NCBI RefSeq assembly: GCF_000973105.1
Contig: NC_015844.1
Span: 5,266,501-5,330,500 of the forward strand
Origin: Zobellia galactanivorans
Lineage (GTDB): Bacteria; Bacteroidota; Bacteroidia; Flavobacteriales; Flavobacteriaceae
Length of the DNA stretch: 64,000 nt
Direction of reading: 5' to 3'
Below, piece by piece: positions 11,832 through 34,630 of the stretch (position 1 is its first letter; every line of letters begins with the position of its first letter). Made by a program: the position numbers and the translations under genes. Below the pieces are notes generated by a model. It did not search any database and was not told where the DNA came from. It was given only the letters and a program-made list of their open reading frames with translations.

Positions 11832-12413
11832 CTATTTGGTTTTTACCGCAACGATGAGGCCTGTCGACCAGTCCAACTTGGTCAAAACAAAATCATCCCG
11901 GCCTTCCAAATAGCCTATCAAACGCCCTACATTATCTTCATGGCCTTCAGGCCAATTGGGTTGGACCGCCATATCGTCCACAACATAGAAACCTCCTATA
12001 GCCAAAAGACGAAGCGTTTCATCTATTTCACTGTATTTTCCAGGCCAAGCATCGGCAAAAATCAAATCGAAATGCCCCCCTTCATACGAACGGATCCAAT
12101 CCGACCCATCTTGACAAATCAATTCCACCCGTTCGTCGGCCCCAAAATACTCCGATACGATCTCTATGAGGTCACTATCATTGTCTACCGAAACCAAACT
12201 GCTATCAGGCCCCATACCATCGATCATCCAAGATAGGCTCAAGCCAATGCCCGTGCCCATCTCCAAAAATCTTCCGTTGGGCTTTGACAACATCAATGTT
12301 TTCAACAAGCTACCGACATATAGATCGGAAGGCATGGTAAAGCCCACTTCCTTCGATTTTCGCTGAATCTCTTGATAGATTTTTGGTTGATCCGATATTT
12401 GGGAGTCGAGCAT
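11832..12413 (-). CDS. O-methyltransferase-like SAM-dependent methyltransferase
   Basis: 193 aa with the class I Rossmann methyltransferase motifs: FLEMGTGIGLSLSWM (motif I, SAM loop), LVSVDNDSDLI (acidic ribose-binding strand), HFDLIFADAWPGKY (motif IV) and GGFYVVDDM. The overall pattern is closest to the small O-methyltransferase family (catechol/caffeoyl-CoA type). The substrate is unknown. It lies between ilvB (29 bases upstream) and ilvN on the same strand, so it is probably co-transcribed with the ilv genes, though it has no known role in that pathway. Confidence 0.85.
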   Translation of the reverse strand: MLDSQISDQPKIYQEIQRKSKEVGFTMPSDLYVGSLLKTLMLSKPNGRFLEMGTGIGLSLSWMIDGMGPDSSLVSVDNDSDLIEIVSEYFGADERVELICQDGSDWIRSYEGGHFDLIFADAWPGKYSEIDETLRLLAIGGFYVVDDMAVQPNWPEGHEDNVGRLIGYLEGRDDFVLTKLDWSTGLIVAVKTK

Positions 12414-12441
12414 ATCTCTAGTCTATGAGGACAAGCCCCTA

Positions 12442-14175: not shown

Positions 14176-14257
14176 AGGTCTTTAAATCCTTAAATAGCTA
14201 ATCTGCAGAGACCTCTCTGCCAAAACACCTCCCATAACAAGAGGTTCTTATTTTTTA

Positions 14258-17199: not shown

Positions 17200-17929
17200 C
17201 TAGCAAAATTTTTTCCAATTTGTAAATACCCACTTCACCTTCGATCTTATGCAAATCGTATTCCGCCCTACTTACGGAATAGAACTGCACCTGATCACCT
17301 ACACTGACAAAGCAGGGCTCTTCTTTCTTAGGGTTGAACATGGGTACCGGGCAGTTTCCGATAATGTTCCACCCCCCAGGCGATTCTTGAGGATATATCC
17401 CCGTCTGCTTCCCTGCCAAGCCCACGGATCCCGCCACCACCTTCGGACGGGGCTGCGGCCTCCTATCGAACTCCAATGTTTCGGGAAGTCCCCCCAAATA
17501 AGTGAAGCCCGGCAAAAATCCTATACCGAATACCGTATAAACATGGGAAGTATGCAAGGTTACAATTTCACCTATAGACATTCCGGACCTCTCGGCGATT
17601 TCAATTAAATCTATCCCGAAGTCCAAATCATAGCATACGGGCAAACGCCAAAGCACACGCTGCCTCTTGACCACTTTAATATCCTCGTTATACCAATTTT
17701 GAAGCTTCTCCTTAAAAGCATCGAACTCGATCGGCTCTTCCCGGTAGATCAACGCAACGGAATTATAGGCCGGCACAATTTCCCAACGGTCACTCTTTAA
17801 GCAACACTCCCTCAAATACTGGGTAAATTGAAGAATATCTTCCAATATATCACGATCCACCCTACTTGGCCATTCCAAAAGGATGGCATGCCTACCAAAG
17901 GGCCGTATGGAAATAGAATACTTTTTCAC
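17192..17929 (-). CDS. pxpB: 5-oxoprolinase subunit B (KipI/AHS1 family)
   Basis: 245 aa from a GTG at 17929 whose GTGA overlaps the pxpA stop codon; a much longer in-frame extension upstream lies inside pxpA and does not look like family sequence. The domain has the conserved FLPGFTYLGGLPETL and GGWNIIGNCPVPMFNP segments. It is a cyclophilin-like-fold partner of PxpC in the oxoprolinase complex. Middle gene of pxpABC. Confidence 0.92.
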   Translation of the reverse strand: MKKYSISIRPFGRHAILLEWPSRVDRDILEDILQFTQYLRECCLKSDRWEIVPAYNSVALIYREEPIEFDAFKEKLQNWYNEDIKVVKRQRVLWRLPVCYDLDFGIDLIEIAERSGMSIGEIVTLHTSHVYTVFGIGFLPGFTYLGGLPETLEFDRRPQPRPKVVAGSVGLAGKQTGIYPQESPGGWNIIGNCPVPMFNPKKEEPCFVSVGDQVQFYSVSRAEYDLHKIEGEVGIYKLEKILLDA

Positions 17930-18669
17930 TTTTCTATCAATATATTTAGGTGCGACAATTCTTGAGTAAGATACAATACTATTTGCAATGCACCTTGGGT
18001 ATCCCCATGAACACAAAAAGTATCGGCAAGTATCTTTACCTTCTTTCCCGTAACCGTAACCACCTGCTGTGTACCTACCATTTCGGCTACGTGCGCCAAG
18101 ACCTCTTCTTTAGATGTTATCAGCCCGTTCCCAAACCGACGGGAAACCAAACTTAAATCGTCGTTATAGTTACGATCGGCAAATGCCTCATACTTTATCT
18201 TAAACCCTGAACACAGGGCCTCCTTTGCCACTTCTGAGCCATAGGGCACATATATAAAGGTAGTTTTCTTGTATTTTTCCACAGCCATCAAAAACAGACG
18301 GGCCAAATCGACATCTTTGGCAATATCGTTATACAAGGCCCCATGGGCCTTAATATGGTGCATAGATTTTCCTTTCTCAAGAAGCGTTCCTTCCAAAAGG
18401 GATATCTGCTCCCTAATACTGCCTATCAGTTCGGCTTCGGGTATTTGTATAGAAACCCTGCCAAAGTTGGATGTATCGGGATAGGAAGGATGCGCCCCCA
18501 CTTTTACATTATATATATGCGCAAGATCTACGATATCGGAAATACTCTGCGCGTTACCCGCATGCCCTCCACAGGCCACATTGCACGATGAGATCAAGGG
18601 CAAAAGATCCTTTTCAAGACCTATACCTTCACCCACATCACTATTTAAGTCTATATAACTTGGCTTCAT
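17926..18669 (-). CDS. pxpA: 5-oxoprolinase subunit A (LamB/YcsF family)
   Basis: 247 aa. Starts with the family hallmark IDLNSDVGEG and contains SCNVACGGHAGN, VGAHPSYPD and VKAHGALYND, metal- and substrate-binding motifs of the LamB/YcsF fold. First gene of pxpABC; the 280-base upstream region is shared with the divergent gene at 18953 and must hold its promoter. Confidence 0.93.
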   Translation of the reverse strand: MKPSYIDLNSDVGEGIGLEKDLLPLISSCNVACGGHAGNAQSISDIVDLAHIYNVKVGAHPSYPDTSNFGRVSIQIPEAELIGSIREQISLLEGTLLEKGKSMHHIKAHGALYNDIAKDVDLARLFLMAVEKYKKTTFIYVPYGSEVAKEALCSGFKIKYEAFADRNYNDDLSLVSRRFGNGLITSKEEVLAHVAEMVGTQQVVTVTGKKVKILADTFCVHGDTQGALQIVLYLTQELSHLNILIEK

Positions 18670-20839: not shown

Positions 20840-21541
20840 TCAACCCAGCCAACCTTCCCTATCTAGACTGCGATACTGAATAGCTTCGCCAATATGGTTG
20901 CCACCTACCTGTTCCACACCTTCCAAATCAGCTATGGTTCGTGCCACTTTTAAAATGCGGTCATAGGCCCGGGCCGAGAGATTAAGCCGCTCCATTGCAT
21001 TTTTCAACAATGCCTTGGAAGAAACATCCAAAGTACAGAATTCCCGTATTTGTTTGGTATTCATCTGGGCGTTGTAGTGTACATTTTCTATTTCCGCAAA
21101 CCGCTTGGTTTGAATGTCACGGGCCGCCGTCACCCGTTTTCTGATTTCCACACTGCTTTCCCCCTTTCTATCTTCCGATAATTTTTCAAATGGAACCGGG
21201 GTCACTTCGATATGGATATCGATACGGTCCAACAAGGGGCCCGATATTTTCCCCAGATACCGTTGCATTTCGGCAGGAGAAGATGTCACGGGAGCATCGG
21301 GATCATTGAAATACCCTCCGGGACTCGGGTTCATACTTGCCACCAGCATAAAACTACTGGGGTAGGTAACGGTAAAACGCGCCCGTGAAATGGTAACCTC
21401 GCGGTCCTCCATAGGTTGCCGCATTACCTCCAGCACCCTACGTTCGAACTCAGGAAGTTCATCTAAGAACAGAACCCCATTATGCGACAATGATATTTCA
21501 CCTGGCTGCGGGTAACTTCCCCCGCCCACTAATGCGGCAGC
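20840..21541 (-). pseudogene. comM: YifB/ComM Mg-chelatase-like ATPase, C-terminal fragment
   Basis: The C-terminal ~233 residues of YifB/ComM. It starts at the point AALVGGGSYPQPGEISLSHN, has the Walker B block GVLFLDELPEFERR, sensor region MLVASMNPSPGGYF, an arginine-finger region and the C-terminal Mg_chelatase_C domain (NLSARAYDRILKVARTIADL). The N-terminal half lies 12 kb away at 33793-34630 on the same strand. Joining at the shared CAGC restores an uninterrupted 511-aa frame. Separation of Walker A from Walker B means neither fragment can act as an ATPase. An ATG at 21547, inside the integrated element, could start a truncated product. Confidence 0.93.
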
Positions 21542-21567
21542 CGTCATATTGTAGAATGTGGGGGTAA
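21521..21567. other. Left attachment site (comM/element junction)
   Basis: The host half is comM sequence with a CCCGC arm 20 bases from the centre; the element half (21540-21567) carries ATTGTAGAATG and GGGGGTAA. The element half is the inverted partner of the right end. The crossover must lie in CAGC (21538-21541). Confidence 0.85.
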
Positions 21568-21807
21568 GTTTCAGAACAAATGCACTATTTTAGATAGGTA
21601 AGAAAGTATTTGATTCATCAATCTGATTTTCAATAATATGTGTATCATGTTGGTGGTTCTTCAATAACAATTTTAAAAGCTGATTAAAAGAATATTTAAG
21701 TATTGTAGTACAATCCAGTTTGAAACTTAATTATTATTTTACGACCACAACTTGATTTTAATCTTTAAATAATTTTAGATAACCTACAATTGAATTTGAA
21801 TCATCAC

Positions 21808-22050
21808 ATGAAGACATTTATTAAATACTATAAGAATATTTTAGTTTTGTGGATAGCCATTGGAATAGGTTTTACTGGATTTTTCTATATATATCCGGAA
21901 TATGTGACAGTAAAAAAACGTACTCGACATATAGAATACGTTAAACGAAACATTTACACAAAGTCAAAATTATCGTTATTGTATACTGTAGTTGGCTCTA
22001 TTGTAATAGGAGGTTTTGGTTATATAGAATCCAATAGAAAAACTAAATAA
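21808..22050 (+). CDS. Small membrane protein of the element, unknown function
   Basis: 80 aa from the ATG at 21808. Two hydrophobic helices (ILVLWIAIGIGFTGFFYIYP and LLYTVVGSIVIGGFGYI) flank a basic loop (KKRTRHIEYVKRNIYTKSK). The pattern looks like a short inner-membrane protein. It is the first gene inside the left end, six bases before the next gene. Confidence 0.55.
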   Translation: MKTFIKYYKNILVLWIAIGIGFTGFFYIYPEYVTVKKRTRHIEYVKRNIYTKSKLSLLYTVVGSIVIGGFGYIESNRKTK

Positions 22051-22055
22051 AAAAA

Positions 22056-22319
22056 ATGAACATAACATATCATATTGGAAAGCTTTCTGATCACATCTAC
22101 AGCAACGATAAGCGTGGAATGATTGATAAACATCTTAAAGCTATTGAGCATAAATATATAGAAGGAGAATTCAAAATTGATTCATCAGATCGGTATGTAT
22201 TTAATAAACTTATTTCAAAAATGAGAAAATTCAACAAAGGAACTTGGCAAAAAGAAAACTTGGAGTATAAAATATTGTATTATTCACTTTGTTATTTGCT
22301 AAATCAAAAGACTATATAA
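22056..22319 (+). CDS. Hypothetical protein, possibly frameshifted near its 3' end
   Basis: 87 aa, basic and helical, no recognisable domain. Immediately before its stop, a one-base shift opens a frame that reads KDYIRDSKDEFFKLIGINEK and ends at 22372; this looks like a natural continuation, so the present stop may result from a frameshift in the CAAAAG tract near 22300. It follows the membrane-protein gene by five bases. Confidence 0.45.
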   Translation: MNITYHIGKLSDHIYSNDKRGMIDKHLKAIEHKYIEGEFKIDSSDRYVFNKLISKMRKFNKGTWQKENLEYKILYYSLCYLLNQKTI

Positions 22320-22372
22320 GGGATTCTAAGGATGAATTTTTTAAACTTATTGGAATAAATGAAAAAGTTTAA

Positions 22373-22655
22373 ATAAACGATGGATTTTATGAGTGAATTT
22401 TTCCCTGAAATATGGAGTAGTAGTGTTTCTTGTGGGTGTATTTTTGGATTAATTTAATAATTCAATAAAATTTGTAATGCTGTACGGATGCAGCATCTAA
22501 TTGGTTATTTAACTAAAATAGTATTCTTAAGTAGCCTCTTTTCTTTTAATATTTGATGTAGTTAATATTTACGAGGGGCTAACAATATTTATTCTTCTAC
22601 AGGAACAATGAACGTTTAAATTAGAAATAAATTAATTCATTTTCAGTACAACCCC
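22373..22655. other. AT-rich leader of the integrase gene
   Basis: About 280 bases with no convincing gene (a 25-codon frame starting at 22380 is the longest). It must hold the integrase promoter; I see no clear -33/-7 pair. Confidence 0.4.
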
Positions 22656-24266
22656 ATGCTTGCAATTTACTGTCGAATCTCACAAGAGAAACTAGAAGGA
22701 AAAGACCGTTCGATCAAAGATCAAAAACTTTTAGGGATCGAACTTGCGGAATCGCTGAAACTGCCCTACAAAGTTTATATTGATGAAGGAATCAGCGGAA
22801 CAAAGGCCATTGCGGACCGCCCCGCCTTTTCCGAAATGTTGGACGATATTCAGGACGGAAAAATTACGTCCGTCTACGCCTATGATCAATCACGTTTAGA
22901 GCGTTCACCGGAAACCCGCTTCGTTTTTAAAAGGCTGTTAAAGGAAAACAACGTCAAACTATACACCGATAACGGTTTAGTCGACACCGAGAGCGAAGAA
23001 GGCGAAATGATGGGCGATTTCTTGAGCATCATAAACCAGTATTACGCCCGAATTACTGCCCGAAAAATAAAATCCGTACTAAAGCGTAATGCCAAAGAAG
23101 GAAAGGTACACGGAAACATATTGCCGTTCGGGTATTCCAAAGATGAAAAAGGGTATTTGACGATAAACGAAAAGGAAGCGGAAATAGTAAAAGAGATTTA
23201 CGCCAAATCCCTTTCGGGCATAGGGTCAAGCACGATAAAAAACTGGCTGAACGAAACCGGAGTTCCGACGCGGTACAACAAATTATCGGGTACGTTGACG
23301 ACCGTTAACAAATACACGGGAAAAAAGACAACAAAGAAAAAATCAGATATTAAATGGTCGGATAAAACCGTTCAAGATATACTAAGAAACCCCATATATA
23401 AAGGTAAAAGAAGGTGGGGCAAAGAGTTTTACGATTGTCCCGCTATCCTTGATGCGGATTATTGGCAGAAAGTAAACGACAACCTCCCTAAAAACAAGCA
23501 TAATTCCGGAAAGAAAGTCGACCATAAATATTTGCTCAAAGGCCTTTTAGAGTGTGCCAAATGTGGTCGAAATTTGTACGGACACCGTAGGGTCAGTTTA
23601 AAGGACAACGCCTATATATGTAGCAGCAAGAGGATTAAAAGTCAAAATTGCGGTAGTAGGGGGATAAATATCGATTATTTGGAAGATGTTATTTTCAGTA
23701 GATTCTTAAAAGGTGACAAACTCTTGGAAATGGTCAGGGAATCCACCAAAAACGACCTAGATAATCAACGCTCTCTCAAGCTTAACAAAGAACTTGAAAC
23801 ACTCGAAAAGAGAAAACAGGAATTGGAACGCCAAAAGGAAAAAGCAATTCGCCTTACCTTGCTTGATGAAGTTTCGGAATCGGACCTTTCGAACATTTTA
23901 AAAGGTATGGATCAAGAACATTCAGACGCCAATATCAGGATTTCCAACATAAAGAGCGAACTTGAATTTCTGAAAAAGGGCCTTAACTCTCAAAATGAAA
24001 TACAAAACGATATTTCCCAAATGAAAGACAATACACCGTTTAATATTAAGAGGGATATGATCCACAAATATATAAAGCGTATCTATATTACTTGGTGGCC
24101 CGAAGTTTTCGAACATATTATCGAGGTATCTTTCAACCTCCCTATTCCGAACGAAAAATTCCTTACCAATAGAGGTCACAAGCTTAAAAAACTTGGATTG
24201 GAACTAAACGGCAAGGACTGGAAATCTATCGAGGGGATAATTTACAATAATCATCAAGAACATTAG
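22656..24266 (+). CDS. Large serine recombinase (site-specific integrase)
   Basis: 536 aa with the full large-serine-integrase architecture. Residues 1-145: resolvase catalytic domain, nucleophile Ser9 in IYCRISQEKLEGKD, and the arginine-bearing DQSRLERSPETRF. Residues 150-270: Recombinase (DNA-binding) domain with LPFGYSKDEKGYL and QDILRNPIYKGKRRW. Residues ~297-335: zinc ribbon (Cys300, Cys303, Cys322, Cys332). Residues ~360-445: coiled coil. This is the only integrase of the right type in the element and the dyad structure of the ends fits it. It would integrate the element into comM and, with a directionality factor, excise it. Confidence 0.95.
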   Translation: MLAIYCRISQEKLEGKDRSIKDQKLLGIELAESLKLPYKVYIDEGISGTKAIADRPAFSEMLDDIQDGKITSVYAYDQSRLERSPETRFVFKRLLKENNVKLYTDNGLVDTESEEGEMMGDFLSIINQYYARITARKIKSVLKRNAKEGKVHGNILPFGYSKDEKGYLTINEKEAEIVKEIYAKSLSGIGSSTIKNWLNETGVPTRYNKLSGTLTTVNKYTGKKTTKKKSDIKWSDKTVQDILRNPIYKGKRRWGKEFYDCPAILDADYWQKVNDNLPKNKHNSGKKVDHKYLLKGLLECAKCGRNLYGHRRVSLKDNAYICSSKRIKSQNCGSRGINIDYLEDVIFSRFLKGDKLLEMVRESTKNDLDNQRSLKLNKELETLEKRKQELERQKEKAIRLTLLDEVSESDLSNILKGMDQEHSDANIRISNIKSELEFLKKGLNSQNEIQNDISQMKDNTPFNIKRDMIHKYIKRIYITWWPEVFEHIIEVSFNLPIPNEKFLTNRGHKLKKLGLELNGKDWKSIEGIIYNNHQEH

Positions 24267-24381
24267 CCCAACCGGATAAAACTTCGTCTTCCGTATCGCA
24301 AGTGTAATATATCGCCTTCAATATAGGTTTGATTTCTTCGGGGTTGTCAAATTCAAGGACCGCGACGGCATCTATACACAA
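24226..24381 (-). pseudogene. Possible truncated gene antisense to the integrase 3' end
   Basis: On the minus strand there is a frame reading CIDAVAVLEFDNPEEIKPIL, AIYYTCDTEDEVLSGWANVL and a short tail, with codon use like the integrase and unlike the AT-rich sequence that begins at about 24382. The frame loses protein-like character upstream of 24381 and no start is visible. It may be the 3' remnant of a gene cut off when the PIN cassette arrived. I do not recognise it. Confidence 0.3.
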
Positions 24382-24517
24382 TGTGGGCGAAAACAATAAA
24401 AATTTGGAACTAAATAAAGGCTGTGGGCTAGGCAATTTCGTATATATTTTTGAAGTTATTAACAAACAGATTGACTTTTGCATATATTTGTCAAAAGGTG
24501 TATTAACCGATAAAGAT

Positions 24518-25276
24518 TTGTCAGAAAGACTTAAAATAAGATTTACAGGCAACGAAATAGAGCCTTCTAAAGTGACTGCTAACGAGTTCGCTAAACTTGT
24601 TGCGTCGTATGAAAATGCATTGTTATCTGTTTTAAATAATGGTAAACCAAAAAAAAATTCAGTAGACTTTATTAGTGTTGTAAGTGTGAAAAATGAAAGC
24701 CTAACTATCGAAGCACAACCTCATACATTAGAGGTTAAAGAGGCTGCTAATACTATAAATAAAGCTATAAAAAATAAAACTTTCAATAGACTTCCTTACG
24801 ATGCTGTAGATAGTTTATCGGTATTACAATCATTCGTAAATAAACATAAATGTAGGGCTCTTTTAAATGGGATTGATGATATTGAATCCGCCGAAATAAA
24901 TGAAGATAGCGGCATTCAAATTAGCGATTCTCTTTATTTTAAGGGAAAAACAACTGTTTACGGGAAAATAATGAGAATAGGGGGGTCTGAGCCTAAAGTG
25001 AGAATAAAAACAGATGATGGAATATATCTTTCAGTAGTTGTTTCTAAAGAAGTTGCTAAAGAATTATCTCCTAATCTTTACAGCAGAATAGGTATAAAAG
25101 GCACTGGCAAATGGAAAAAATATAATAATGAATTAGAGGAAATAAAGGCTGAGTCATTTGTCATTATATCAGATGAACCACTCACAAAAAAACTAAAAGG
25201 CCTTAGTGAGATTATTGGAGATTATTGGAAAAATATTGATAATCCGGATGATTATATAGCATCAATTCGAGAATAA
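24518..25276 (+). CDS. OB-like partner protein of the PIN toxin, putative antitoxin
   Basis: About 252 aa if it starts at the TTG at 24518 (SERLKIRFTGNEIEPSKVTA); there is no ATG in the conserved N-terminal part and upstream codons to 24329 look non-coding. A TATATTTG box (24483-24490) lies 28 bases before this start. The C-terminal ~100 residues are beta-rich (TVYGKIMRIGGSEPKVRIK, then YLSVVVSKEVAKEL and YSRIGIKGTGKWKKY) and resemble a small nucleic-acid-binding barrel. The stop is four bases before a PIN-domain gene. The pairing suggests an antitoxin or accessory, but I do not recognise a named family. Confidence 0.6.
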   Translation: MSERLKIRFTGNEIEPSKVTANEFAKLVASYENALLSVLNNGKPKKNSVDFISVVSVKNESLTIEAQPHTLEVKEAANTINKAIKNKTFNRLPYDAVDSLSVLQSFVNKHKCRALLNGIDDIESAEINEDSGIQISDSLYFKGKTTVYGKIMRIGGSEPKVRIKTDDGIYLSVVVSKEVAKELSPNLYSRIGIKGTGKWKKYNNELEEIKAESFVIISDEPLTKKLKGLSEIIGDYWKNIDNPDDYIASIRE

Positions 25277-25280
25277 TTAA

Positions 25281-25853
25281 ATGAAGAAAGTCTGCCTAGA
25301 TACTAATATATTGGTTTGGTACATTAAACGTCAAGCTACAAAAGGTCAAGAGGGATTTATACCTAAAGTAGATTATTTGTTTAAACATTTTGAAAAAAAG
25401 AACATTACTATAGTAATACCTAGTATAGTTCTTGCGGAATTACTAGGAAGTGTTGCTGACGAAGATAAAAGAGATGAGTATTTTGATTATTTGAACAGTA
25501 ATTTTGAAATAGCCCAATACGATATTGTTTCATCCAGACAGTACGCAGACTTAAGAGCTAAACTGTCGAAAAAAAACGCAAAGCAATACGCAAACAAGAA
25601 AAGTGTACCAAAATGCATGATGATAAATGATTATAACATATGCGCTGTTGCTTTATCTAGTGGATGTGATGCAATTTTTTCACATAATTTAAAGGATTTT
25701 GAGAAATTTATAGATCATCGAATTCCTATTTACACGTTAGACTACGTGGATAAGCTTAAGAAGGAAGAAGAAAAAATTACAAAAAGGCAATTGTCCCAAT
25801 CTAATCAATTCAGCCTTCTAAACGATTTACCAGACTTTCAAGAGGATGAGTGA
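25281..25853 (+). CDS. PIN-domain ribonuclease (VapC-like)
   Basis: 190 aa. PIN-fold acidic residues: Asp7 in KVCLDTNILVWY, Glu in PSIVLAELLGS, and Asp residues in MINDYNICAVAL and GCDAIFSHNLKDFEKF. PIN proteins cleave RNA; small ones are the toxins of VapBC-type modules. At 190 aa this is longer than most VapC, with an extra charged C-terminal tail. It is tightly coupled to the preceding gene. Confidence 0.85.
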   Translation: MKKVCLDTNILVWYIKRQATKGQEGFIPKVDYLFKHFEKKNITIVIPSIVLAELLGSVADEDKRDEYFDYLNSNFEIAQYDIVSSRQYADLRAKLSKKNAKQYANKKSVPKCMMINDYNICAVALSSGCDAIFSHNLKDFEKFIDHRIPIYTLDYVDKLKKEEEKITKRQLSQSNQFSLLNDLPDFQEDE

Positions 25854-25861
25854 TTTAATGA

Positions 25862-26014
25862 TGTTTTACAGTTAGCGATAAGCATATCGTACGTTATTTA
25901 GATGAATATGCAGCTAGGTTCAATAATAAACAAATTACGCCTAATGAGCGTTTCGATAAATTTTTGGAAGGTTCTGATAGTTGTTTGAGCTACAAAACTT
26001 TAACAGAAATATAA
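25862..26014 (+). pseudogene. C-terminal remnant of an IS1595-family (ISXO2-like) transposase
   Basis: A frame reading SDKHIVRYLDEYAARFNNKQ, then ITPNERFDKFLEGSDSCLSY, ending at a stop. The YxDEYxxRFNxR...ERF pattern is the conserved C-terminus of IS1595 transposases. No N-terminal part, DDE region or terminal inverted repeats are visible, so this is an old fragment of an insertion sequence, perhaps related to how the PIN cassette was moved here. Confidence 0.7.
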
Positions 26015-26052
26015 TAAGGCATATGTCCAATTTTTTGGATATATGCCTTATC
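26013..26052 (+). terminator. Hairpin terminator
   Basis: A 15-bp stem (ATAAGGCATATGTCC/GGATATATGCCTTAT with one G-T pair) around AATTTTTT. It lies after the transposase remnant and before the Panacea gene; it may also be a leftover of the insertion sequence's end. Confidence 0.6.
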
Positions 26053-26095
26053 TTATAATCAAATGCTAATCACTATCTTTGAAAAAATTAATCCA

Positions 26096-26587
26096 ATGTA
26101 CAATCCAATTACTATAGCCAATTACTTTATCTATAAGTCTATAGACGAAGGTGTGCCAATTACCCCAATGAAGGTTTTAAAATTGGTTTATATTGCGCAC
26201 GGATGGCATTTAGGCTTAAAAGATAGGCCACTTTTAACAGAACAAACAGAAGCTTGGAAATACGGTCCGGTTGTGGAATCCGTATACAGGGCCTTTAAAG
26301 ATTTCGGAAAAAATGATATTGATAAAATTAGATTTTTTTCGATCCGAGATAAAAAAGAGTTTGTTGAGTTAACTTCTAATAATAATGATGTTCAGTTTCT
26401 TGAAAAGATATGGAATACCTATAAGTCTTATTCAGGAATCCAATTATCGTCTTTAACTCATTTGCCTAATACTCCTTGGGATGTAACATGGAACAAAAAT
26501 GGAGGTAGTTTGATGAATGGAGCTATTATCCCTAATTCCTTAATAAAGGAGTATTACACAAAAAAATCTATTGAAAATAAAAATTAG
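26096..26587 (+). CDS. Panacea-domain protein (DUF4065, SocA-like antitoxin)
   Basis: 163 aa from the ATG at 26096; an ATG eleven codons upstream is less family-like. The domain has the family features MYNPITIANYFIYKSI, PMKVLKLVYIAHGWHLGL, and TEAWKYGPVVESVYRAFKDF. Panacea proteins are antitoxins in many two-gene systems (for example SocA and PanA); the toxin is usually next door and very variable. Here the next gene begins six bases after the stop and encodes a small membrane protein. The true toxin cannot be proven from sequence. Confidence 0.85.
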   Translation: MYNPITIANYFIYKSIDEGVPITPMKVLKLVYIAHGWHLGLKDRPLLTEQTEAWKYGPVVESVYRAFKDFGKNDIDKIRFFSIRDKKEFVELTSNNNDVQFLEKIWNTYKSYSGIQLSSLTHLPNTPWDVTWNKNGGSLMNGAIIPNSLIKEYYTKKSIENKN

Positions 26588-26592
26588 CCTTG

Positions 26593-26925
26593 ATGGATGA
26601 CTCTTTTGATCAGGATGAACTTTTAGATTCAATTGGGGAAAATGTTCCATTAGATGATTTAGAAGTAACCAAGAAAGAAAATCAAATTTATGAAGAATTA
26701 AATAAAGGCTCAAAAAGTCAACATAGACATACAGTTTTTATTTGTTCGTTATATCTCTTTTGGGGAATTGGAATTATAATAATTTTGGTTAGAGTTTATC
26801 ATTTTATCGCTTCTGATTGTTACCAGTGGCTTTCTTTAGAACAAATACAGTCATTAGATAAGTTGCTTTTTAGTGGTACTGTTGGAACAGTGATTGGTAG
26901 ATATGGAAATAACCTTTTCAAATAA
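26593..26925 (+). CDS. Small two-helix membrane protein, candidate toxin/effector of the Panacea pair
   Basis: 110 aa from the ATG at 26593. An acidic N-terminus (DDSFDQDELLDSIGENVPLD) is followed by a helix around FICSLYLFWGIGIIIILVRV, a polar loop and a weaker second hydrophobic stretch (LLFSGTVGTVIGRYG). It is in an operon with the Panacea gene and with a 46-aa gene nine bases downstream. A membrane partner fits the known membrane-acting toxins neutralised by Panacea antitoxins, but I do not recognise the family. Confidence 0.6.
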   Translation: MDDSFDQDELLDSIGENVPLDDLEVTKKENQIYEELNKGSKSQHRHTVFICSLYLFWGIGIIIILVRVYHFIASDCYQWLSLEQIQSLDKLLFSGTVGTVIGRYGNNLFK

Positions 26926-26933
26926 TTCTAAGC

Positions 26934-27074
26934 ATGTCAAAAGAAAAAGGTAAAGATTCTCAAGAACGCTCCAAGTACGATGAAACTCTAAAGATAAATA
27001 CCTCTTTAGAAGATGTTCTAAAGGTTTCAATACCTAAAAAGGATAAAAAAGAAAAATGCCTAGATGGTATATGA
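26934..27074 (+). CDS. 46-aa acidic/basic small protein, third gene of the Panacea operon
   Basis: Starts MSKEKGKDSQERSKYDETLK, then INTSLEDVLKVSIPKKDKKE and a short tail. Highly charged and probably soluble, with the motif YDETLKINTSLEDVLKV that could be a short helical binding peptide. The ATG lies nine bases after the previous stop. I do not know its function. Confidence 0.5.
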   Translation: MSKEKGKDSQERSKYDETLKINTSLEDVLKVSIPKKDKKEKCLDGI

Positions 27075-27349
27075 TTGTCTGGTACAATTTAAACTGTACA
27101 TGGTGTCATATTATGTCTTTAGGTCAAGAATACGCCCCCTTTATGGAAGAGGTCAGCAAGAAATAACAGATCTGTTTTGGTGGCACAACCTAGGTGACAT
27201 GAATGAAAGCGAAATCAGGGCGTGTAGGAAATCGTCAAATGTTCCTTCACATATAAAGGTTGGTTTTGAATTCTCTGCAAGAGCGTAGAGGGTTAGAAAT
27301 CCTGAAACCGCTCCTTTAAAAAAAAGACCAAAATAGGTTTATCCTACTC

Positions 27350-27493
27350 TCAATTTATACACTCGGCCACATTGAATATAGATGCCACAGCAACATCTAT
27401 GGCGTAATCAAGAAAGCGTTCCCCGTTTCCCCCTAGGGAATCGATCAATAGATTTGTTATTAGTTCTTCTTTTCTGATGTTTGATGTTTCCAT
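27350..27493 (-). CDS. 47-aa hypothetical protein
   Basis: Starts METSNIRKEELITNLLIDSL, then GGNGERFLDYAIDVAVASIF and a short tail. The amphipathic helix-turn-helix look and codon use make it more gene-like than the sequence around it. It is convergent with the Panacea operon. I do not recognise it. Confidence 0.35.
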   Translation of the reverse strand: METSNIRKEELITNLLIDSLGGNGERFLDYAIDVAVASIFNVAECIN

Positions 27494-27535
27494 GTACTTA
27501 TAACGGAATCCACTTGTATTTTCTTGAAATAATTC

Positions 27536-28045
27536 GACGAAAGGGTCATTCCGCCCCGAAACCCCCTATTTATGGGAGTTCCAAGAAAAAAAGGAGTAAC
27601 TGGATTAACTTTTCCTATTTACAGGTCTTTTTATTTATACTTTATTTATTTTTTCTATTATTTTCCATAAATAATCGGAAAAAAACAAAAAAGTGACTCC
27701 ATTCCCTTGGAACACCCTTATTTTACGGGCAATTCCAAGGGAATGACTTTTTAGACCAGTGAACCCAAGATTTAGTCTAATTCCTTGGAACTCCCTTATT
27801 TTACTTGTGTTTACAAAGGAATTAACTTAAAAAACAACTCACTCCAAACCTTTAGATTTTAGCAAAAGTGACACCCTTTTATTGAAATTTGGGCCAAAAT
27901 GTTAAGAATTTTAACAAGCAAGAAAATCATAAATTTTACTTAAAGGCTAATGTTTACCTAGCCAATGCGCTTGAAAAAGACAGGCCCACCCCCCGAACGC
28001 AAATCATGCTACAAAGTTTGGGTTAATTCCAAGGTGTATCAGTTT
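27536..28045. repeat. Repeat-rich non-coding region, candidate origin or res site
   Basis: About 500 bases without a gene, directly before the resolvase. Two copies of TTGGAACxCCCTTATTTTAC occur 78 bases apart (27707-27726 and 27785-27804), each inside a larger imperfect inverted repeat. The first is flanked by a perfect 13-bp stem (CATTCCCTTGGAA, 27700-27712, with its complement at 27733-27745); the second by an 8-bp stem. A weaker copy lies at about 27547-27585 and a part copy (TTAATTCCAAGG) at about 28023. The layout suits resolvase or replication-initiator binding. Confidence 0.6.
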
Positions 28046-28158
28046 TAGGGCATGATTTATTCATGACCATTTTTTTTATTAGTAAAGCTTACTTTTTATA
28101 GGGGTTATTTGTGTGTCAATTGTACCTACCTTATTTTTGATACAGTAAATTAGAGTTT

Positions 28159-28752
28159 ATGAAAGCACGATACGTAAGAATTTCGACACCTGATCAAAAA
28201 CTAGAACGCCAACTATCCAAGAAACACGCCGACGAAACATTGTTTATTGATATTTGCAGCGGCTCGATACCATTTAATGAGCGGCCACAAGGAAAGGTCC
28301 TTTTAAATTCTTCGGACGTTACATACTTAACGGTCCACGCAATAGACCGATTAGGGCGCAATACCTTAGACATCTTGCAGACGCTCGACAAACTAGATCA
28401 AAAGGGCGTTACGGTCAAAATCGAAAACCTTGGTATTGAATCGCGAATAGACGGCAAGCCTAATCAAGTATTTAAACTGATTACTTCCGTACTGGCCAAC
28501 GTCGCCGAAATGGAACGCGAAACGATGTTAGAAAGACAGCGCGAAGGCATTGCAATAGCTAAGGCCAAAGGCAAATATAAAGGCCGTTTAAGAGGCTCTA
28601 AAGAAGATAAAGAAGTTTTCCTATCCAAATACCCACAGGTCGTAAAAAGATTAAAGCAAGGCCATAGTTTACGCAATACATCAAAGCTTTGTGATGTTTC
28701 GGTAAATACAGTAAGGAAAGTAAAAAAACATCTATTCGATAACATTCGATAG
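28159..28752 (+). CDS. Small serine recombinase (resolvase/invertase family)
   Basis: 197 aa. Catalytic domain with Ser9 in YVRISTPDQKLERQL and the conserved VHAIDRLGRNTLDILQ; a long E helix (NVAEMERETMLERQREGIA) and GKYKGR; a C-terminal HTH (SLRNTSKLCDVSVNTVRKVKK). Such enzymes resolve dimers or invert DNA. It lies just after a repeat-rich region that could hold its sites, and it may resolve multimers of a circular replicating form of the element. Confidence 0.9.
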   Translation: MKARYVRISTPDQKLERQLSKKHADETLFIDICSGSIPFNERPQGKVLLNSSDVTYLTVHAIDRLGRNTLDILQTLDKLDQKGVTVKIENLGIESRIDGKPNQVFKLITSVLANVAEMERETMLERQREGIAIAKAKGKYKGRLRGSKEDKEVFLSKYPQVVKRLKQGHSLRNTSKLCDVSVNTVRKVKKHLFDNIR

Positions 28753-28912
28753 TTACACAATATCCATTTGTCAAACGGATATAAAATTGCGCAGAATTAA
28801 TAATAAAACCCATAGCGGAACTACGGGTTATATTACTGCGATTTGTTTTTGGACGTTCAAATCACTTCAAATATAATCATATTCCGTGAAGGGTTTATAA
28901 AATCACTTTTTT

Positions 28913-29200
28913 ATGAATCATTCGCAATTTAATTTATTGCTGCAAAAACAGAATCAAGCAATAGAACTAACACAAGGGTTAAAAGAAAAATTAGAAAGTA
29001 TTCTTAATCCACCGCAACCCGAATTATTAAGTCCTAAAGAAATTTCATTTCTACTTAACCGCTCTTATCAATCGGTAATGAAATATCTAAAGGAAAACCA
29101 ATTAAGCCCCGTCTATAGGGGTCGCGTAGCCCTATATAGGTACGATGAAGTTTTGAAACTCGCTAAAAAATTAGGAATAACAACTAAAAAAATTGCCTAA
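28913..29200 (+). CDS. Excisionase-like helix-turn-helix protein
   Basis: 95 aa. A coiled N-terminal ~45 residues precede a winged HTH (LLSPKEISFLLNRSYQSVMK, then YRGRVALYRYDEVLKLAKKL), the HTH_17/MerR-like fold used by Xis/AlpA proteins. It may be the recombination directionality factor or the regulator of the replication genes. Its stop overlaps the start of the next gene by one base, so it is the first gene of a six-gene run. Confidence 0.8.
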   Translation: MNHSQFNLLLQKQNQAIELTQGLKEKLESILNPPQPELLSPKEISFLLNRSYQSVMKYLKENQLSPVYRGRVALYRYDEVLKLAKKLGITTKKIA

Positions 29201-30666
29201 TGAACAGCAGTTTATCCAAAATAATTTCAGACTTACACATTGAAGCGGCAAATCTTGAAGTTCATAGATTTTGGAAGGTAAAACGAAATTCTAAAGACCC
29301 TTCTAAATTTGTCGTTCTACCAAATGAAGTAGATTTTATTGAATGGCTCAAATCGTTAGGTGTTTGTTTTGAATACGCTACAAATTCTTTAGTTCAAGAG
29401 AAAAACGGAATTATCACGCCAATTGAAATCGGCCAATTGAAGCATATTGTACGCGACGCTATCTTGGAAATGCCTGACGTAATAGACGAGGACATAACAA
29501 AAGATGTCGTTCTTAATATGATAATGGCCAATGAAGCGCGACTATTTAGAGCTAAAGGAGTTTTGGAGTTCTTGCCTACGAAGAAATTTAATTGGCTTAG
29601 AGCGACAAAAGACACAGCTTATTTTCCCTTTAATAACTGTATTGTCGAAGTGGTCAAGAACGATGTAAAAACCGTTTCCTATGATGTTTTAGGCGATCGA
29701 GTGATATGGAAATCACAAATAATTGACAGGGATTTTGAATTACTTGAGCCGGATGGTTCGGATTGGGCCGATTTTATTTTTCATGCTGCGGGCGGAACTC
29801 AAGAATTAGTCGACAACCTAAACAATGCCCTTGGTTATTTGTTACACGATTACAAAGACCAATCGAACGCATTTTTTACAGTCTTCGGCGAATCGGTTGA
29901 TGATTCGAGCAAAGGCGGGGGCGCGGGTAAGGGGTTGGTTTCAAATGCTTTATCCTACGTTGTTAATACAACGTTCAAGGACATGCGCCAATTTTCCCCC
30001 CAAGACCCCTTTGCTTGGAGCGGTGTAACTAATCAGACCAAAATTCTAGTTCTATCGGACTTAAAAAAAGGGTTTGATCATTCCATTCTGTATAACATGG
30101 TTACGGATTCAATTGAGGTCAACCGAAAAAACAAACCTGTAGAAATTATCGAGTTTGAAAATTCACCAAAGATTCTGGCATCTACTAATTACAGTATCGA
30201 TATGAGTACTGGACATGGAAATCGCCGTCTTAGATTGGTTGAATTTGCGCCTTACTTTAATGCCGAACATACCCCAGTTCATAAATACGGCCACTTGTTT
30301 TTTAAGGACTGGAACGACGAAGATTGGAACAAATTCTATTCGTATTTATTCATTTGCGTTGCCCAGTATTTAAGTAAAGGGTTTCCGCGAATAGGTGAAT
30401 CTCATTCTGCCAAAAAGAAAAGAGTACTTGAAGCTTACGGGGCTGCGGATCTTTATGACTGGTTGGCCGAATACAGTACGGAAGGCGAATATTTACCTTT
30501 TAGTGATGTCTATATAGATTATTCAAGTTCAAGGCATGTGTCAAAGCCTATGGGTAAAAACATCTTTTCAAAACGATTAAATGAGGTTGCCGATTTGCTA
30601 GAAAAACCAATCGACATTGTTGAACATGCTAAAGTCAAAAAAATAAAGATATGCAGTACGAAATAA
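29200..30666 (+). CDS. SF3/D5-like replicative helicase
   Basis: 488 aa. An N-terminal ~180 residues of unknown fold, then a phage/plasmid D5-like AAA+ helicase: GESVDDSSKGGGAGKGLVSN holds Walker A, KILVLSDLKKGF Walker B, and PKILASTNYSID the motif-C Asn; GHGNRRLRLVEFAPYF is the arginine region. Such helicases drive replication of phages, plasmids and satellites. The start codon overlaps the HTH gene and the end overlaps the primase gene by 16 bases. Confidence 0.82.
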   Translation: MNSSLSKIISDLHIEAANLEVHRFWKVKRNSKDPSKFVVLPNEVDFIEWLKSLGVCFEYATNSLVQEKNGIITPIEIGQLKHIVRDAILEMPDVIDEDITKDVVLNMIMANEARLFRAKGVLEFLPTKKFNWLRATKDTAYFPFNNCIVEVVKNDVKTVSYDVLGDRVIWKSQIIDRDFELLEPDGSDWADFIFHAAGGTQELVDNLNNALGYLLHDYKDQSNAFFTVFGESVDDSSKGGGAGKGLVSNALSYVVNTTFKDMRQFSPQDPFAWSGVTNQTKILVLSDLKKGFDHSILYNMVTDSIEVNRKNKPVEIIEFENSPKILASTNYSIDMSTGHGNRRLRLVEFAPYFNAEHTPVHKYGHLFFKDWNDEDWNKFYSYLFICVAQYLSKGFPRIGESHSAKKKRVLEAYGAADLYDWLAEYSTEGEYLPFSDVYIDYSSSRHVSKPMGKNIFSKRLNEVADLLEKPIDIVEHAKVKKIKICSTK

Positions 30667-31514
30667 TCTATGTTCCGTACACGCCGAACAGTAAAAAGGA
30701 CTGTCCAAAATGCGGAGGAAAAAAGACCTTGACATTATTTATGAATCGGTTAACTGGCGAGGTATATCCCGATACCTTTGGCACTTGTGATCGCCAAGAA
30801 TCATGCGGATATAACAATCGGCCGAAACGTACTACAAGGACTTCTAAAGAGGTAATAAAACCGACACCCCCAAAGCCAATAGATTATATCGACATCCAAG
30901 AAGTTATCAATAGAGAATTAGAAGGTAACAACCATTTTTTCACTTTCTTACGGGGTTGTATTGGAACTGATGGTTTAAATCATGTCAAAATGAAATATCG
31001 GCTTGGAACATCTATTGAACACAGCAAATTTGTCGCATTCCCCCAGATAGATGAAAAGGGTCGATGCAGACAAATTAAAGAGATGCTTTACGACCCCAAA
31101 ACCGGAAAAAGAAAGAAGATTAAAGGGGCGCAAAGATGGGCTTTTGAAAAATTCAGATACCCTAATTTAAACTTGGAACAATGTTTTTTTGGATCACATC
31201 TAATTGCCGGAAATGAAAAGCCAATCGCCTTGGTTGAAAGCGAAAAAACAGCTTTGATTTGTTCTTATTTCATACCTGATTATATATGGTTGGCAACTGG
31301 TTGCCTCACAATGTTAACCCCTCAAAGGTGCGCATTTCTAAAAGGGCGAAAACTTATACTTTACCCTGATAAGGGAAAAGCTTTTGCCATTTGGAAAATG
31401 AAAGCTGCAAAAATAAAAGGCACAGCATCGATAACGGTTAGTGATTATTTAGAAACGAAAAGCGAGGTAAAAGAAGGTGATGACCTTGCAGACTTAATAT
31501 TGAAAAAACTATGA
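30651..31514 (+). CDS. Zinc-ribbon/TOPRIM-like primase
   Basis: 287 aa. N-terminal zinc ribbon CPKCGGKKTLTL...CDRQESCGYN (primase/helicase type), then a linker, then a TOPRIM-like block with the conserved Glu in IALVESEKTALICSYF and the Asp in KLILYPDKGKAFAIW (the second acidic position of the usual DxD reads lysine/glycine here). It matches the DUF6371-type proteins found in Bacteroidetes mobile elements. It would make primers for the helicase above. Confidence 0.75.
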   Translation: MQYEIIYVPYTPNSKKDCPKCGGKKTLTLFMNRLTGEVYPDTFGTCDRQESCGYNNRPKRTTRTSKEVIKPTPPKPIDYIDIQEVINRELEGNNHFFTFLRGCIGTDGLNHVKMKYRLGTSIEHSKFVAFPQIDEKGRCRQIKEMLYDPKTGKRKKIKGAQRWAFEKFRYPNLNLEQCFFGSHLIAGNEKPIALVESEKTALICSYFIPDYIWLATGCLTMLTPQRCAFLKGRKLILYPDKGKAFAIWKMKAAKIKGTASITVSDYLETKSEVKEGDDLADLILKKL

Positions 31515-32023
31515 AAGATACAGCGATAGTACATTATGCTAGAGAGCCATTTGATAAGGATTCCGGCGCAATTTACGGTCTATATATATACCATGAAGGA
31601 AACCTTAAAAGCTTTTGTTCTAACGGCTCTGAAAAAGGGGAATTAAGCGCAATCGACGATTACGCTTATTACATAGACAAACTCATTGGAAAAGGCACTA
31701 AAATAGTTCATTGGGGACAGGATCGGGTTGACTTCGGATGGCAACATATCGCATTTAGATACGAAGAACTTTACCGACACACCCCAGACTTCTATCTATA
31801 CTATGGGGAAAACGAATTTAATCTTGCTTGGGAACTATTGAAAAAATTCGGTTTCAATTATGCCGCACATCCAAGATTAAACAGTTTGGCGGAAATGAAC
31901 GGTTGGACAAAATACAATTCGACAAAAGACCCATCCATTTTATTTGACCACAGGCGAACAGAATTAATAGTAAAAATTTATAAAGCATTTATTTCTAACA
32001 CTTTAAAAACAAACGAAAAATGA
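31511..32023 (+). CDS. Unknown protein in the replication operon
   Basis: 170 aa. Features: TAIVHYAREPFDKDSGAIYG, KIVHWGQDRVDFGWQHIAFR, AHPRLNSLAEMNGW, and a basic C-terminus. The arrangement of H, D, R and later D/H residues hints at a ribonuclease-H-like exonuclease fold, but I cannot confirm catalytic acids. Starts four bases before the primase stop (ATGA), so it is coupled to replication genes. Confidence 0.5.
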   Translation: MKDTAIVHYAREPFDKDSGAIYGLYIYHEGNLKSFCSNGSEKGELSAIDDYAYYIDKLIGKGTKIVHWGQDRVDFGWQHIAFRYEELYRHTPDFYLYYGENEFNLAWELLKKFGFNYAAHPRLNSLAEMNGWTKYNSTKDPSILFDHRRTELIVKIYKAFISNTLKTNEK

Positions 32024-32553
32024 AAAACAAGAGAATAAGAGTAGGGATTAACACATCAAAGAAAGTCAAACTAGAAAGTGAACTACAAGCCAAGGCCGTA
32101 AAGTGGCAAGCACGAAAGACAGCTTTAGATTCGATAAACAAATCGTTAAAGGCGAATTTCTCCACAATTGAAGAACTTAACATTTTTTTGGATGAAAAAA
32201 CAGGTTTCCCAAATAGAAGCATGTCCGCATTGGCTTTTAATATTCAAGACGAATACGACGCATTTGTCAAAGTTGCTGATGCAACAATTGATAAAGGTAT
32301 TTTTGAAACTGATGAAAATGGGGACTTGGTAAAACTAAAGAATGGTAGTTTTATCTTTACAAAAGAGGCTGCCGAACAAATTGCTAACGACTGCGGAAAT
32401 TATATCGAAGGTGAACGACTTGAAATTTACTTAAAAATGAAGGAGTTCCAAAAGTTCTATAATTCTTTGGATACCCGCTATAGGAATGGCGGAGGTTGTA
32501 GGTTTCAAGGTTCAGCGCAAATGACAATAAGTGAATATTATTTCGCGGATTAA
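32020..32553 (+). CDS. Unknown helical protein in the replication operon
   Basis: 177 aa, very basic N-terminus (KNKRIRVGINTSKKVKLESE), the rest helical with no motif I recognise (TGFPNRSMSALAFNIQDEY, GRFQGSAQMT near the end). It overlaps the previous gene by four bases and is followed by a terminator, so it ends the replication operon. Confidence 0.5.
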   Translation: MKNKRIRVGINTSKKVKLESELQAKAVKWQARKTALDSINKSLKANFSTIEELNIFLDEKTGFPNRSMSALAFNIQDEYDAFVKVADATIDKGIFETDENGDLVKLKNGSFIFTKEAAEQIANDCGNYIEGERLEIYLKMKEFQKFYNSLDTRYRNGGGCRFQGSAQMTISEYYFAD

Positions 32554-32559
32554 AATCAC

Positions 32560-32594
32560 AGGCCCAGAGGTTAATTCTTCTGGGCTTTTTTATT
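32560..32594 (+). terminator. Terminator of the element's replication operon
   Basis: The stem GCCCAGA/TCTGGGC is followed by TTTTTTATTATTTTT, just after the stop at 32553. Confidence 0.88.
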
Positions 32595-32604
32595 ATTTTT
32601 AAGT

Positions 32605-32724
32605 ATGGATTTCAGCGATTGGACTTGGTACGAAATAGTTGGAGCGGCGATTCTGTTTGTTGTAGTCTTTATAGTTGGTAATTGGGTCAACGATAAGGCC
32701 TACAAAAGCAGATGGAAGAATTAA
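32605..32724 (+). CDS. Small membrane protein (39 aa)
   Basis: A 39-codon frame MDFSDWTWYEIVGAAILFVV and on, with a single transmembrane helix and a basic tail (DKAYKSRWKN). It starts eleven bases after the terminator and ends overlapping the convergent gene by four bases. Confidence 0.45.
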   Translation: MDFSDWTWYEIVGAAILFVVVFIVGNWVNDKAYKSRWKN

Positions 32725-32987
32725 AACCTCGTCAACTCCCACCCGTATTTTGGTATAGCCCAATACCCCAAAACATTCATTACATGCCTTACCGTACCTC
32801 CTGGATAACGATAATATAAATTTAAGCTACGATTATCCCATTCCACATAAAAACCCTCTAAACCCAAAGGTCTAATTTCCTCTAAACCTTCGTCTTTTAT
32901 TGCTTCCTCATACCTTTCTTTGCCAATTTCGACCAATAATTGCCGAATAGCCTTTTTATCGTAGTTTCTAAATACTTGCTTGGACAT
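32721..32987 (-). CDS. Hypothetical protein
   Basis: 88 aa, soluble-looking, with a helical N-half (RNYDKKAIRQLLVEIGKERY) and a strand-rich C-half (FYVEWDNRSLNLYYRYPGG). No recognised domain. It is downstream of the SRAP gene on the same strand (35 bases apart), so probably co-transcribed with it. Confidence 0.45.
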   Translation of the reverse strand: MSKQVFRNYDKKAIRQLLVEIGKERYEEAIKDEGLEEIRPLGLEGFYVEWDNRSLNLYYRYPGGTVRHVMNVLGYWAIPKYGWELTRF

Positions 32988-33022
32988 AATCCAAAAATAC
33001 GGATTATTTCCATAAATATCAT

Positions 33023-33733
33023 TTATTGAATATTCAATTCTGGGTAATCAATTTTAGTTATTGATTGCAAGTTGTCGGCATCAAAACCACGCTTATATAT
33101 ATCCCTAGTTACTGGGTACGCCTCAATTTCTTTGGTAGTGAAACCCACTTTCATTAATTCTGTAATGCCATTTGATGTAAGATCAGGACGTAACCAATCG
33201 GTTTCAAAACTTTCATCTAATATTAAGGGTTGTCTTTTCTTTTGATTATGAATTTTTGAAAATTGTTCGTTTGCCGGCATAGTTAGTATTGAACAGCTAA
33301 AAAAATCATCATCCAATTCGGTATAAAGGCCAGCAAAACAGAATAAAGAATCATCATCATAATGGCAGAAATAAGGGTAAGAAGCATTGTTAAAACGATG
33401 CGGTTCATGAAAGCCGTCCGCAAGTATCAAACAACGATAGTTTTCGGCCGAGTTTTTATAAGTGTTGGAAGTTAGGACCGTTTCGGATTTCGCGTTAAGC
33501 GTATTGTATTTCTTTTGAAAAGCTTGTATATCCTTCTTTCCAAAATCAGGAATCAAACCCCACATTGCCGGATAAATCATGTCCGGTTCATCCATTTTTA
33601 CGATGTATAAATTAGGGTGGGCAAATCCATTTGCCCGATAGTAGGGAGTGTATTCCAACGGTATAGCGAATTGCCGTCTGGTATTACGTTCGATTTCCTC
33701 CCTTTGTTTTCTTAATGTTGTAGAATAGCACAT
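33023..33733 (-). CDS. SRAP-domain protein (HMCES/YedK family)
   Basis: 236 aa. Cys2 after the initiator Met (MCYST) is the residue that crosslinks to abasic sites in ssDNA. Other active-site features: YNTLNAKSE (Asn), LADGFHEP (Glu), and the histidine in KIHNQKKRQPLIL, where the usual IHxRMP is altered to IHNQKKRQP. Such proteins protect abasic sites and are frequent on mobile elements. It sits just inside the right end and reads toward the middle. Confidence 0.9.
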   Translation of the reverse strand: MCYSTTLRKQREEIERNTRRQFAIPLEYTPYYRANGFAHPNLYIVKMDEPDMIYPAMWGLIPDFGKKDIQAFQKKYNTLNAKSETVLTSNTYKNSAENYRCLILADGFHEPHRFNNASYPYFCHYDDDSLFCFAGLYTELDDDFFSCSILTMPANEQFSKIHNQKKRQPLILDESFETDWLRPDLTSNGITELMKVGFTTKEIEAYPVTRDIYKRGFDADNLQSITKIDYPELNIQ

Positions 33734-33768
33734 ACCTACAAATTAAGAAATAATTTTTATTTTTACGG

Positions 33769-33815
33769 TTTCCCCCTCATTCTATACAATAACAGCACTA
33801 GTCGTGTGGTGCGGG
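33769..33815. other. Right attachment site (element/comM junction)
   Basis: The element half (33769-33796) has TTTCCCCCTCATTCTATACA and leads into CAGC; the comM half has a GCGGG arm at equal distance from the centre. Together with the left end it rebuilds a 54-base attP-like dyad and a comM attB-like site, both centred on the same GC. Confidence 0.85.
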
Positions 33816-34630
33816 TTCCTGAAAGGACGTTGGCTCATCAGGCCCATATTCTTGATTTTCCCTACAACACTATGGATCTTTGTTGTTTCCAAAGCCTCAT
33901 GTAAGGTCATTGGCGGGAGTATGGACGGTAAGCGTTTGGCCAACATGGTCTTTCCGGCCCCCGGGGGACCTATTAAAATGATATTATGGCCTCCAGCCGC
34001 GGCAATCTCCATGCAACGCTTGATACTTTCCTGCCCTTTGACATCGGCAAAATCATATTCGGGAAAATCCAAGGCCTTATAAAACTCCTCTTTGGTATCT
34101 ACTATGATTTGTTCCAAGGGCGTACCTTTATCAAAAAAGGAAATGACCTCACTGATATTGGTAACCCCATACACCTTTAATCCTGGTTCTATAGCTGCCT
34201 CTTTGGCATTTTCCATGGGAAGAATAAATCCCTCAAAACCTTCCTCCCTAGCCTTGATAGCAATGGGCAAAGCTCCCTTTATGGGTTGCAGACTACCATC
34301 TAGCGATAGTTCGCCCATAATGATATACTTATCAAGGTCATTGGACTTTATTTGGTTCGAGGCCGTTAAAATACCAATGGCCAAGGTAAGGTCATAAGCC
34401 GAACCTTCCTTTCTTAAATCGGCCGGAGCCATATTTATGGTGATTTTTTTGCCCGGTATCTTATACCCATTGTTCAGTAAGGCAGCGGCAATACGGTAAT
34501 TACTTTCTTTAACGGCATTGTCGGGAAGGCCTACCAAGTGGTAACCTACCCCCTTATCTATGTTGACTTCGACGGTAATAGTGGTTGCATCAACCCCAAA
34601 AACCGAACTTCCGTAAACTTTCGTTAGCAT
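33793..34630 (-). pseudogene. comM: YifB/ComM Mg-chelatase-like ATPase, N-terminal fragment
   Basis: The N-terminal ~279 residues: the ChlI-like domain (VYGSSVFGVDATTITVEVNI, DLTLAIGILTASNQI), then Walker A GPPGAGKTML (residues 221-228) and RPFRNPHHTTS, after which the frame runs into element sequence (VIV) and stops at 33782. The rest of the gene is at 20840-21541. It lies 51 bases downstream of the penicillin-acylase-family gene, on the same strand. In other bacteria ComM is a DNA-branch-migration helicase for natural transformation. Confidence 0.94.

Follow-up and report, generated by a model that had tools for sequence, protein, structure and literature searches.

A putative large serine recombinase element in comM of Zobellia galactanivorans, with relatives at the same codon in other Flavobacteriaceae

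The comM gene of Zobellia galactanivorans is interrupted by a 12,255 bp element, which is very likely a non-conjugative large serine recombinase (LSR) element that inserted exactly in comM through attP x attB recombination and whose excision would restore the gene. The insertion is exact, the site is empty in a relative, attP is symmetric, and related LSRs have used the site repeatedly. The sequence analysed was a window of 64,000 nucleotides (NC_015844.1, 5,266,501-5,330,500), and all coordinates given here are positions in this window. The integrated element occupies 21542-33796, one copy of the shared CAGC included.

The N-terminal fragment of comM (33793-34630, minus strand) includes the shared core and carries the ChlI domain and the first part of the Mg_chelatase domain, with Walker A. 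The C-terminal fragment (20840-21541, minus strand) starts at the shared core and carries the rest of Mg_chelatase together with Mg_chelatase_C. Comparison with TIGR00368 (499 positions) placed the N piece at 1-278 and the C piece at 275-499, and comparison with Pfam Mg_chelatase (207 positions) at 1-86 and 88-205, respectively. The pieces are thus adjacent parts of one ComM/YifB, and not the non-adjacent parts of YifB that the first-pass annotation had named as grounds for giving up its reading. CAGC is present at both breaks (21538-21541 and 33793-33796), and in silico removal of 21542-33796 gave a single frame of 1,536 bp, encoding 511 aa plus stop, without frameshift. The earlier claims that comM is split at one codon with a common CAGC, and that removal of a 12.25-kb element restores it exactly, were thereby borne out, the latter also by the empty site in a relative. 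The translations contain GPPGAGKT on the N piece and LFLDE on the C piece, which we take to be the Walker A and Walker B motifs. The break lies between the two, as had been proposed, and since they are on separate pieces ComM is probably inactive while the element is integrated. A search for comM in the own genome, which is one contig, returned the two comM pieces and two weaker matches, one of these with an E value of 1.8e-7 and inside an 825-aa frame; this profile search of the single contig revealed no intact comM among the matches listed. We also considered a start codon supplied by the element to the C fragment, but it is in-frame only in the window and G093 and not in other relatives, and was put down to chance.

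An uninterrupted site was found within the genus. At locus L025 of genome G008 both flanks are present and the junction is uninterrupted, with 92.3% identity over 5,008 bp, while at the remaining seven same-genus loci the alignment is continuous through the junction at about 72%. In all eight other genomes of the genus, a comM match spans TIGR00368 positions 1-499 without stops. Intact comM with the same flanks, which the first-pass annotation had suggested looking for and without which it would have withdrawn its reading, is therefore present in relatives. The window LSR was found in none of these eight genomes, and the primase-helicase gene of the element occurs in one of the nine genomes of the genus, namely its own.

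The 536-aa protein encoded at 22656-24266 (plus strand) combines a Resolvase with a Recombinase and a zinc-ribbon domain. Among solved structures, its catalytic domain matches those of a putative conjugative transposon recombinase, of TP901-1 integrase and of TnpX, and R7, S9, R80 and R83 are among the positions invariant in nine LSR relatives. S9 is presumably the catalytic serine of large serine recombinases, in keeping with the structure alignment. These domains and residues agree with the identification as a large serine integrase made at first reading, and the protein is predicted to recombine as in other LSR integrative elements. Removal of the element would restore attB without loss or gain, as for LSR elements.

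The predicted crossover dinucleotide GC lies at 21540-21541 in attL (21515-21567; core CAGC 21538-21541) and at 33795-33796 in attR (33769-33821; core CAGC 33793-33796), with about 26 bases on each side of it in both. The attP of the window is pseudo-palindromic, its arms being identical at 19 of 26 positions, a value that none of 500 shuffles matched. We compared the arms of nine elements readable at both ends (window, G079, G333, G185, G323, G120, G069, G093 and G218), leaving out G116 (on two contigs, its ends sharing no clear core), G389 (N side unmatched by the pattern) and G025 and G413 (other comM site). The best arm register was common to eight of the nine, the exception being G185. 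The observed symmetry was reached by 0 of 500 shuffles in window, G323, G120 and G093, by 3 in G218 and by 4 in G079; attP symmetry is weak in G069, G333 and G185, where 28, 40 and 201 shuffles, respectively, reached it. Six relatives have GATGT at both ends, corresponding to the Asp-Val codons of PHHTxSDVALVGGG. The end cores are GATGT/GACGT in G120 and AATGT/AACGT in G323, and GCTG at both ends in the window. From the centre of symmetry and the positions at which the two ends of G120 and of G323 disagree, the crossover was placed at the first two core bases, so that the dinucleotide would be GA in seven relatives, AA in G323 and GC in the window.

Several further genes were mapped in the element, all on the plus strand unless stated. 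A 315-aa protein with uncertain start codon (24329-25276) has no Pfam match and belongs to a PHROGs family of unknown function. It is followed by Pfam-matched PIN-domain (190 aa, 25281-25853) and SocA/Panacea-domain (174 aa, 26063-26587) proteins and by a 111-aa frame with hydrophobic stretches and no Pfam match (26590-26925). The last two (26063-26925) may form a toxin-antitoxin pair, with the Panacea protein as possible antitoxin. Further along lie a small serine recombinase (197 aa, 28159-28752), a 95-aa candidate DNA-binding protein (28913-29200), a primase-helicase-like protein (DUF5906; 488 aa, 29200-30666; Pfam and PHROGs), a zinc-ribbon/DUF6371 protein that is possibly a primase part (287 aa, 30651-31514; Pfam) and, on the minus strand, an SRAP-family protein (236 aa, 33023-33733). 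With PADLOC, one of 10 element proteins, the 95-aa one, had matches, all of them weak (mad1, E 1e-5). The non-coding stretch 27560-27860, upstream of the small serine recombinase, contains repeated inverted repeats TTCCCTTGGAA / TTCCAAGGGAA, which we guess might be a recombination site or a replication origin. This motif was found neither upstream of the small recombinase in six other elements nor elsewhere in the own genome.

No phage structural or packaging genes were matched among 15 element proteins with Pfam or 10 with PHROGs, and no relaxase or secretion genes among the 15 with Pfam, so that the element classes neither as a temperate phage nor as conjugative or mobilizable. When cargo was compared among 12 elements (G218 and G389 only in part), the LSR was, besides comM, common to all 12, and four further families occurred in two elements each. 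The small serine recombinase is present in six and the SRAP protein in four of the 11 other elements compared. The SRAP gene recurs among comM elements of otherwise different cargo (window, G079, G093, G323 and G413).

The window LSR was sought in a family sample of 397 genomes, the own genome included, at a threshold of E<=1e-20. It was found in 20 genomes (own among them), and a comM match above the family cut-off in 332 of the 397. Among the other 19 LSR genomes, 10 have comM split into two pieces that join near profile position 275, one (G413) has the junction near 291-294, and in another (G359) the N-terminal piece alone is visible, at a contig end. The remaining seven have comM at full length or nearly so, G112 (1-473, plus another piece covering 1-309) and G277 (a complete comM alongside a decayed C-terminal copy) among them, which suggests that other sites serve the more distant LSRs of this set.

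When the window LSR was the sole query, no confirmed relative was obtained from the genome and viral contig collections, whereas a profile built from the alignment of nine LSRs did retrieve relatives in both. In genome records it identified 15 loci, from Eudoraea, Flaviramulus, Salegentibacter, Christiangramia, Galbibacter, Maribacter, Cochleicola, Aquimarina, Robiginitalea, Ulvibacter, Gaetbulibacter, an uncultured Lutibacter and three other Flavobacteriaceae. A comM fragment adjoins the LSR in 14 of these, the fifteenth (L098) being a 3-kb contig; eight of the 15 are genomes already in the 20-genome LSR set, and six of the 14 loci with a comM fragment are additional. The break, as read by tblastn, falls at 274-283 in 13 of the 14, and L091 reads 267 yet has GATGT at its junction. 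In L092 the N-fragment is itself disrupted by a frame change near 152. Since a comM fragment broken at or near the same codon accompanies the LSR in 14 of 15 loci, the window element belongs to a lineage of Flavobacteriaceae LSRs that uses this comM site.

Of the 14 loci, nine have the LSR on the side of the N-fragment and five on that of the C-fragment, where it also lies in the window. Inverted insertion via the palindromic GC crossover (GC in the window against GA in most relatives) was considered as the cause of this placement. It was rejected because the C-side position recurs in two loci with the GATGT core, L090 and L100, and because the arms do not reveal the orientation of the window attP; the orientation score from the arms had a log-odds sum of -1.61 in the window and the correct sign in seven of eight relatives, G120 having the wrong one.

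Other breaks in comM were seen along with these. The nine-LSR profile found 20 viral contigs, three of them with comM-like sequence. In L102, whose LSR is 51% identical, this sequence stops at position 278; in L116 and L119, with more distant LSRs, the adjoining sequence ends at 352 and begins at 340, respectively, which suggests yet another comM site. The LSR group of G025 (L027: 3142-3288, 14478-15134) and G413 (L066/L067) is 22-25% identical to the window LSR and splits comM some 45 bases beyond the window site, near profile positions 291-294, here too with inverted repeats on either side. L027 contains yet another comM fragment, its third (17739-18083; positions 274-372), about 2.7 kb behind the C-fragment; an attP-like arm precedes its start at the codon-275 site, and it is probably the scar of an older insertion. 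L074 of G277 (919-1587 and 6288-7823) has full-length comM and, about 4.7 kb downstream, a decayed second C-terminal part that starts near position 271, and G020 and G047 have partial comM copies downstream as well. In L028 (G048:C18:72400-92300; noted at 12216-15928), from another member of the order, comM is interrupted by about 15 kb, its N-fragment ending at about position 141. The insert encodes TniB, TniQ and an integrase-core/Mu-type transposase, and is thus a Tni-type, Tn7-like element in a Flavobacteriales comM.

Joined comM of the window differs from that of L025 at 69 synonymous and 5 nonsynonymous sites, with a dS of 0.23 and a dN/dS of 0.018; for the neighbouring penicillin-amidase gene, intended as a control, the dN/dS between the two was 0.05 over the aligned part. 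At columns invariant in seven outgroup sequences, the window branch showed no change and the L025 branch one. Had comM been free of selection over the whole window branch, about 136 nonsynonymous changes would be expected (0.115 x 1,185), against the few seen, so that any release of comM from selection can have covered no more than a few per cent of that branch. In seven relatives compared with an intact same-genus partner (the intact partners L079 and L086 being left out), joined comM was 511-513 aa without stops. Five of the seven split/intact pairs had a dS that was saturated or exceeded 1.9; the two informative pairs gave a dN/dS of 0.043 (G120) and 0.038 (G323). Nonsynonymous differences from the outgroup were more numerous in the split gene than in its intact partner in G025 (120 vs 99), G413 (120 vs 109), G093 (187 vs 177) and G218 (184 vs 180), and fewer in the other three pairs. 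Matches to ComEC and DprA were found in the own genome, but the same searches also match E. coli and most control genomes, and the matches therefore do not show competence.

In the mechanism that we favour, the LSR would have joined the pseudo-palindromic attP of the element to an attB in comM, where the codons specify PHHTxS(D/A)xALVGGG. This ComM stretch is strongly conserved and hence expected in most hosts, and for that reason the site would suit an integrase. Insertion leaves comM as two open pieces, one with Walker A and the other with Walker B, and ComM very probably inactive, and excision by the same integrase with a putative directionality factor could restore comM exactly. That the break is an artefact of assembly or rearrangement is hardly conceivable, as the genome is one contig, attP is symmetric, and recurrence of the same break in many other genomes contradicts it. 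Breakage of comM may have been selected, in that lower transformation would prevent deletion of the element. We consider this possible but doubtful, any benefit that an element draws from lowered transformation being hypothetical. Two distant LSR groups (near 275 and near 291) and the Tni-type transposon of L028 break comM in Flavobacteriales. In a 2024 study of A. baumannii, comM was inactivated in 22% of the strains, AbaR being one of several kinds of element responsible; the study asks why the gene is targeted and discusses this reason (PMC11472951). However, conservation of the site alone explains its repeated use, and prolyl isomerase, another single-gene target of many LSRs (PMC10083194), is not known to have any such link.

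The element could also act as a regulated, reversible switch, as the first-pass annotation proposed, in which conditional excision rebuilds comM and competence returns. The geometry of the locus makes such a switch possible, and the exact restoration (joined frame, empty site in L025), the lack of decay in the window comM and the open joined comM of seven relatives are consistent with it. A recent insertion, however, predicts the same lack of decay, the undecayed pieces fitting a young insertion and reversible excision alike, and split comM lies slightly further from the outgroup in four of the seven pairs; on balance we hold a switch to be improbable. It seems quite unlikely, too, that a Flavobacteriaceae integrase lineage is dedicated to one comM codon, that the lack of decay in the comM pieces stems from frequent excision, and that elements of otherwise unrelated cargo thereby turn transformation on and off at the population level. 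The exact attP x attB insertion of an LSR element leaves the known mechanism unchanged. What it offers for Flavobacteriaceae, a family with few integration tools, is a precisely defined attB/attP pair together with several relatives that use a single comM codon.

The annotation 'magnesium chelatase/ATP-dependent protease' presumably denotes the comM/yifB family, which fits the Pfam domains found here. Durrant et al. (2022) reported that 12.4% of predicted site-specific LSRs target genes so annotated, that the LSRs which hit them are distantly related, and that targets are enriched in DNA competence genes (PMC10083194). In Wolbachia most sr1WO phages sit in the magnesium chelatase gene (PMC9203015). 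The use of comM by an LSR, which the first-pass annotation had thought worth reporting in a flavobacterium, is therefore already known, and what is added here is a lineage in flavobacteria that prefers one comM codon, along with its attachment sites. Our literature search, in which comM was a poorly discriminating symbol, found no report of a flavobacterial comM-site LSR lineage or of YifB with a serine recombinase. The window element resembles those of Durrant et al. in its LSR, target gene family and exact site-specific insertion, and there too many distantly related LSRs share one gene (PMC10083194). It shares with sr1WO phage WO an LSR that enters the magnesium chelatase gene and leaves gene parts on both sides, but sr1WO is a tailed phage (PMC9203015), whereas no structural phage gene was matched in the 12-kb window element.

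AbaR islands of Acinetobacter likewise break comM. In A. baumannii, insertion in comM lowers transformation, and AbaR removal with scarless repair of comM raises it again (PMC7508600, PMC11472951). AbaR, however, is a Tn7-like transposon with resistance genes (PMC7508600, PMC11472951), whereas the window contains an LSR element in which no resistance genes were matched. The flavobacterial cases bear on why unrelated mobile elements break comM, whether through constancy of the site or through an advantage of lower transformation.

In Listeria, regulated excision of the prophage from comK is known. The window element is likened to this case from its sequence geometry, and the comparison is an analogy. 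Like the window element, A118 in comK has an LSR, a competence gene as its target and a pseudo-palindromic attP, with 25-bp half-sites close in length to those found here (PMC3783163).
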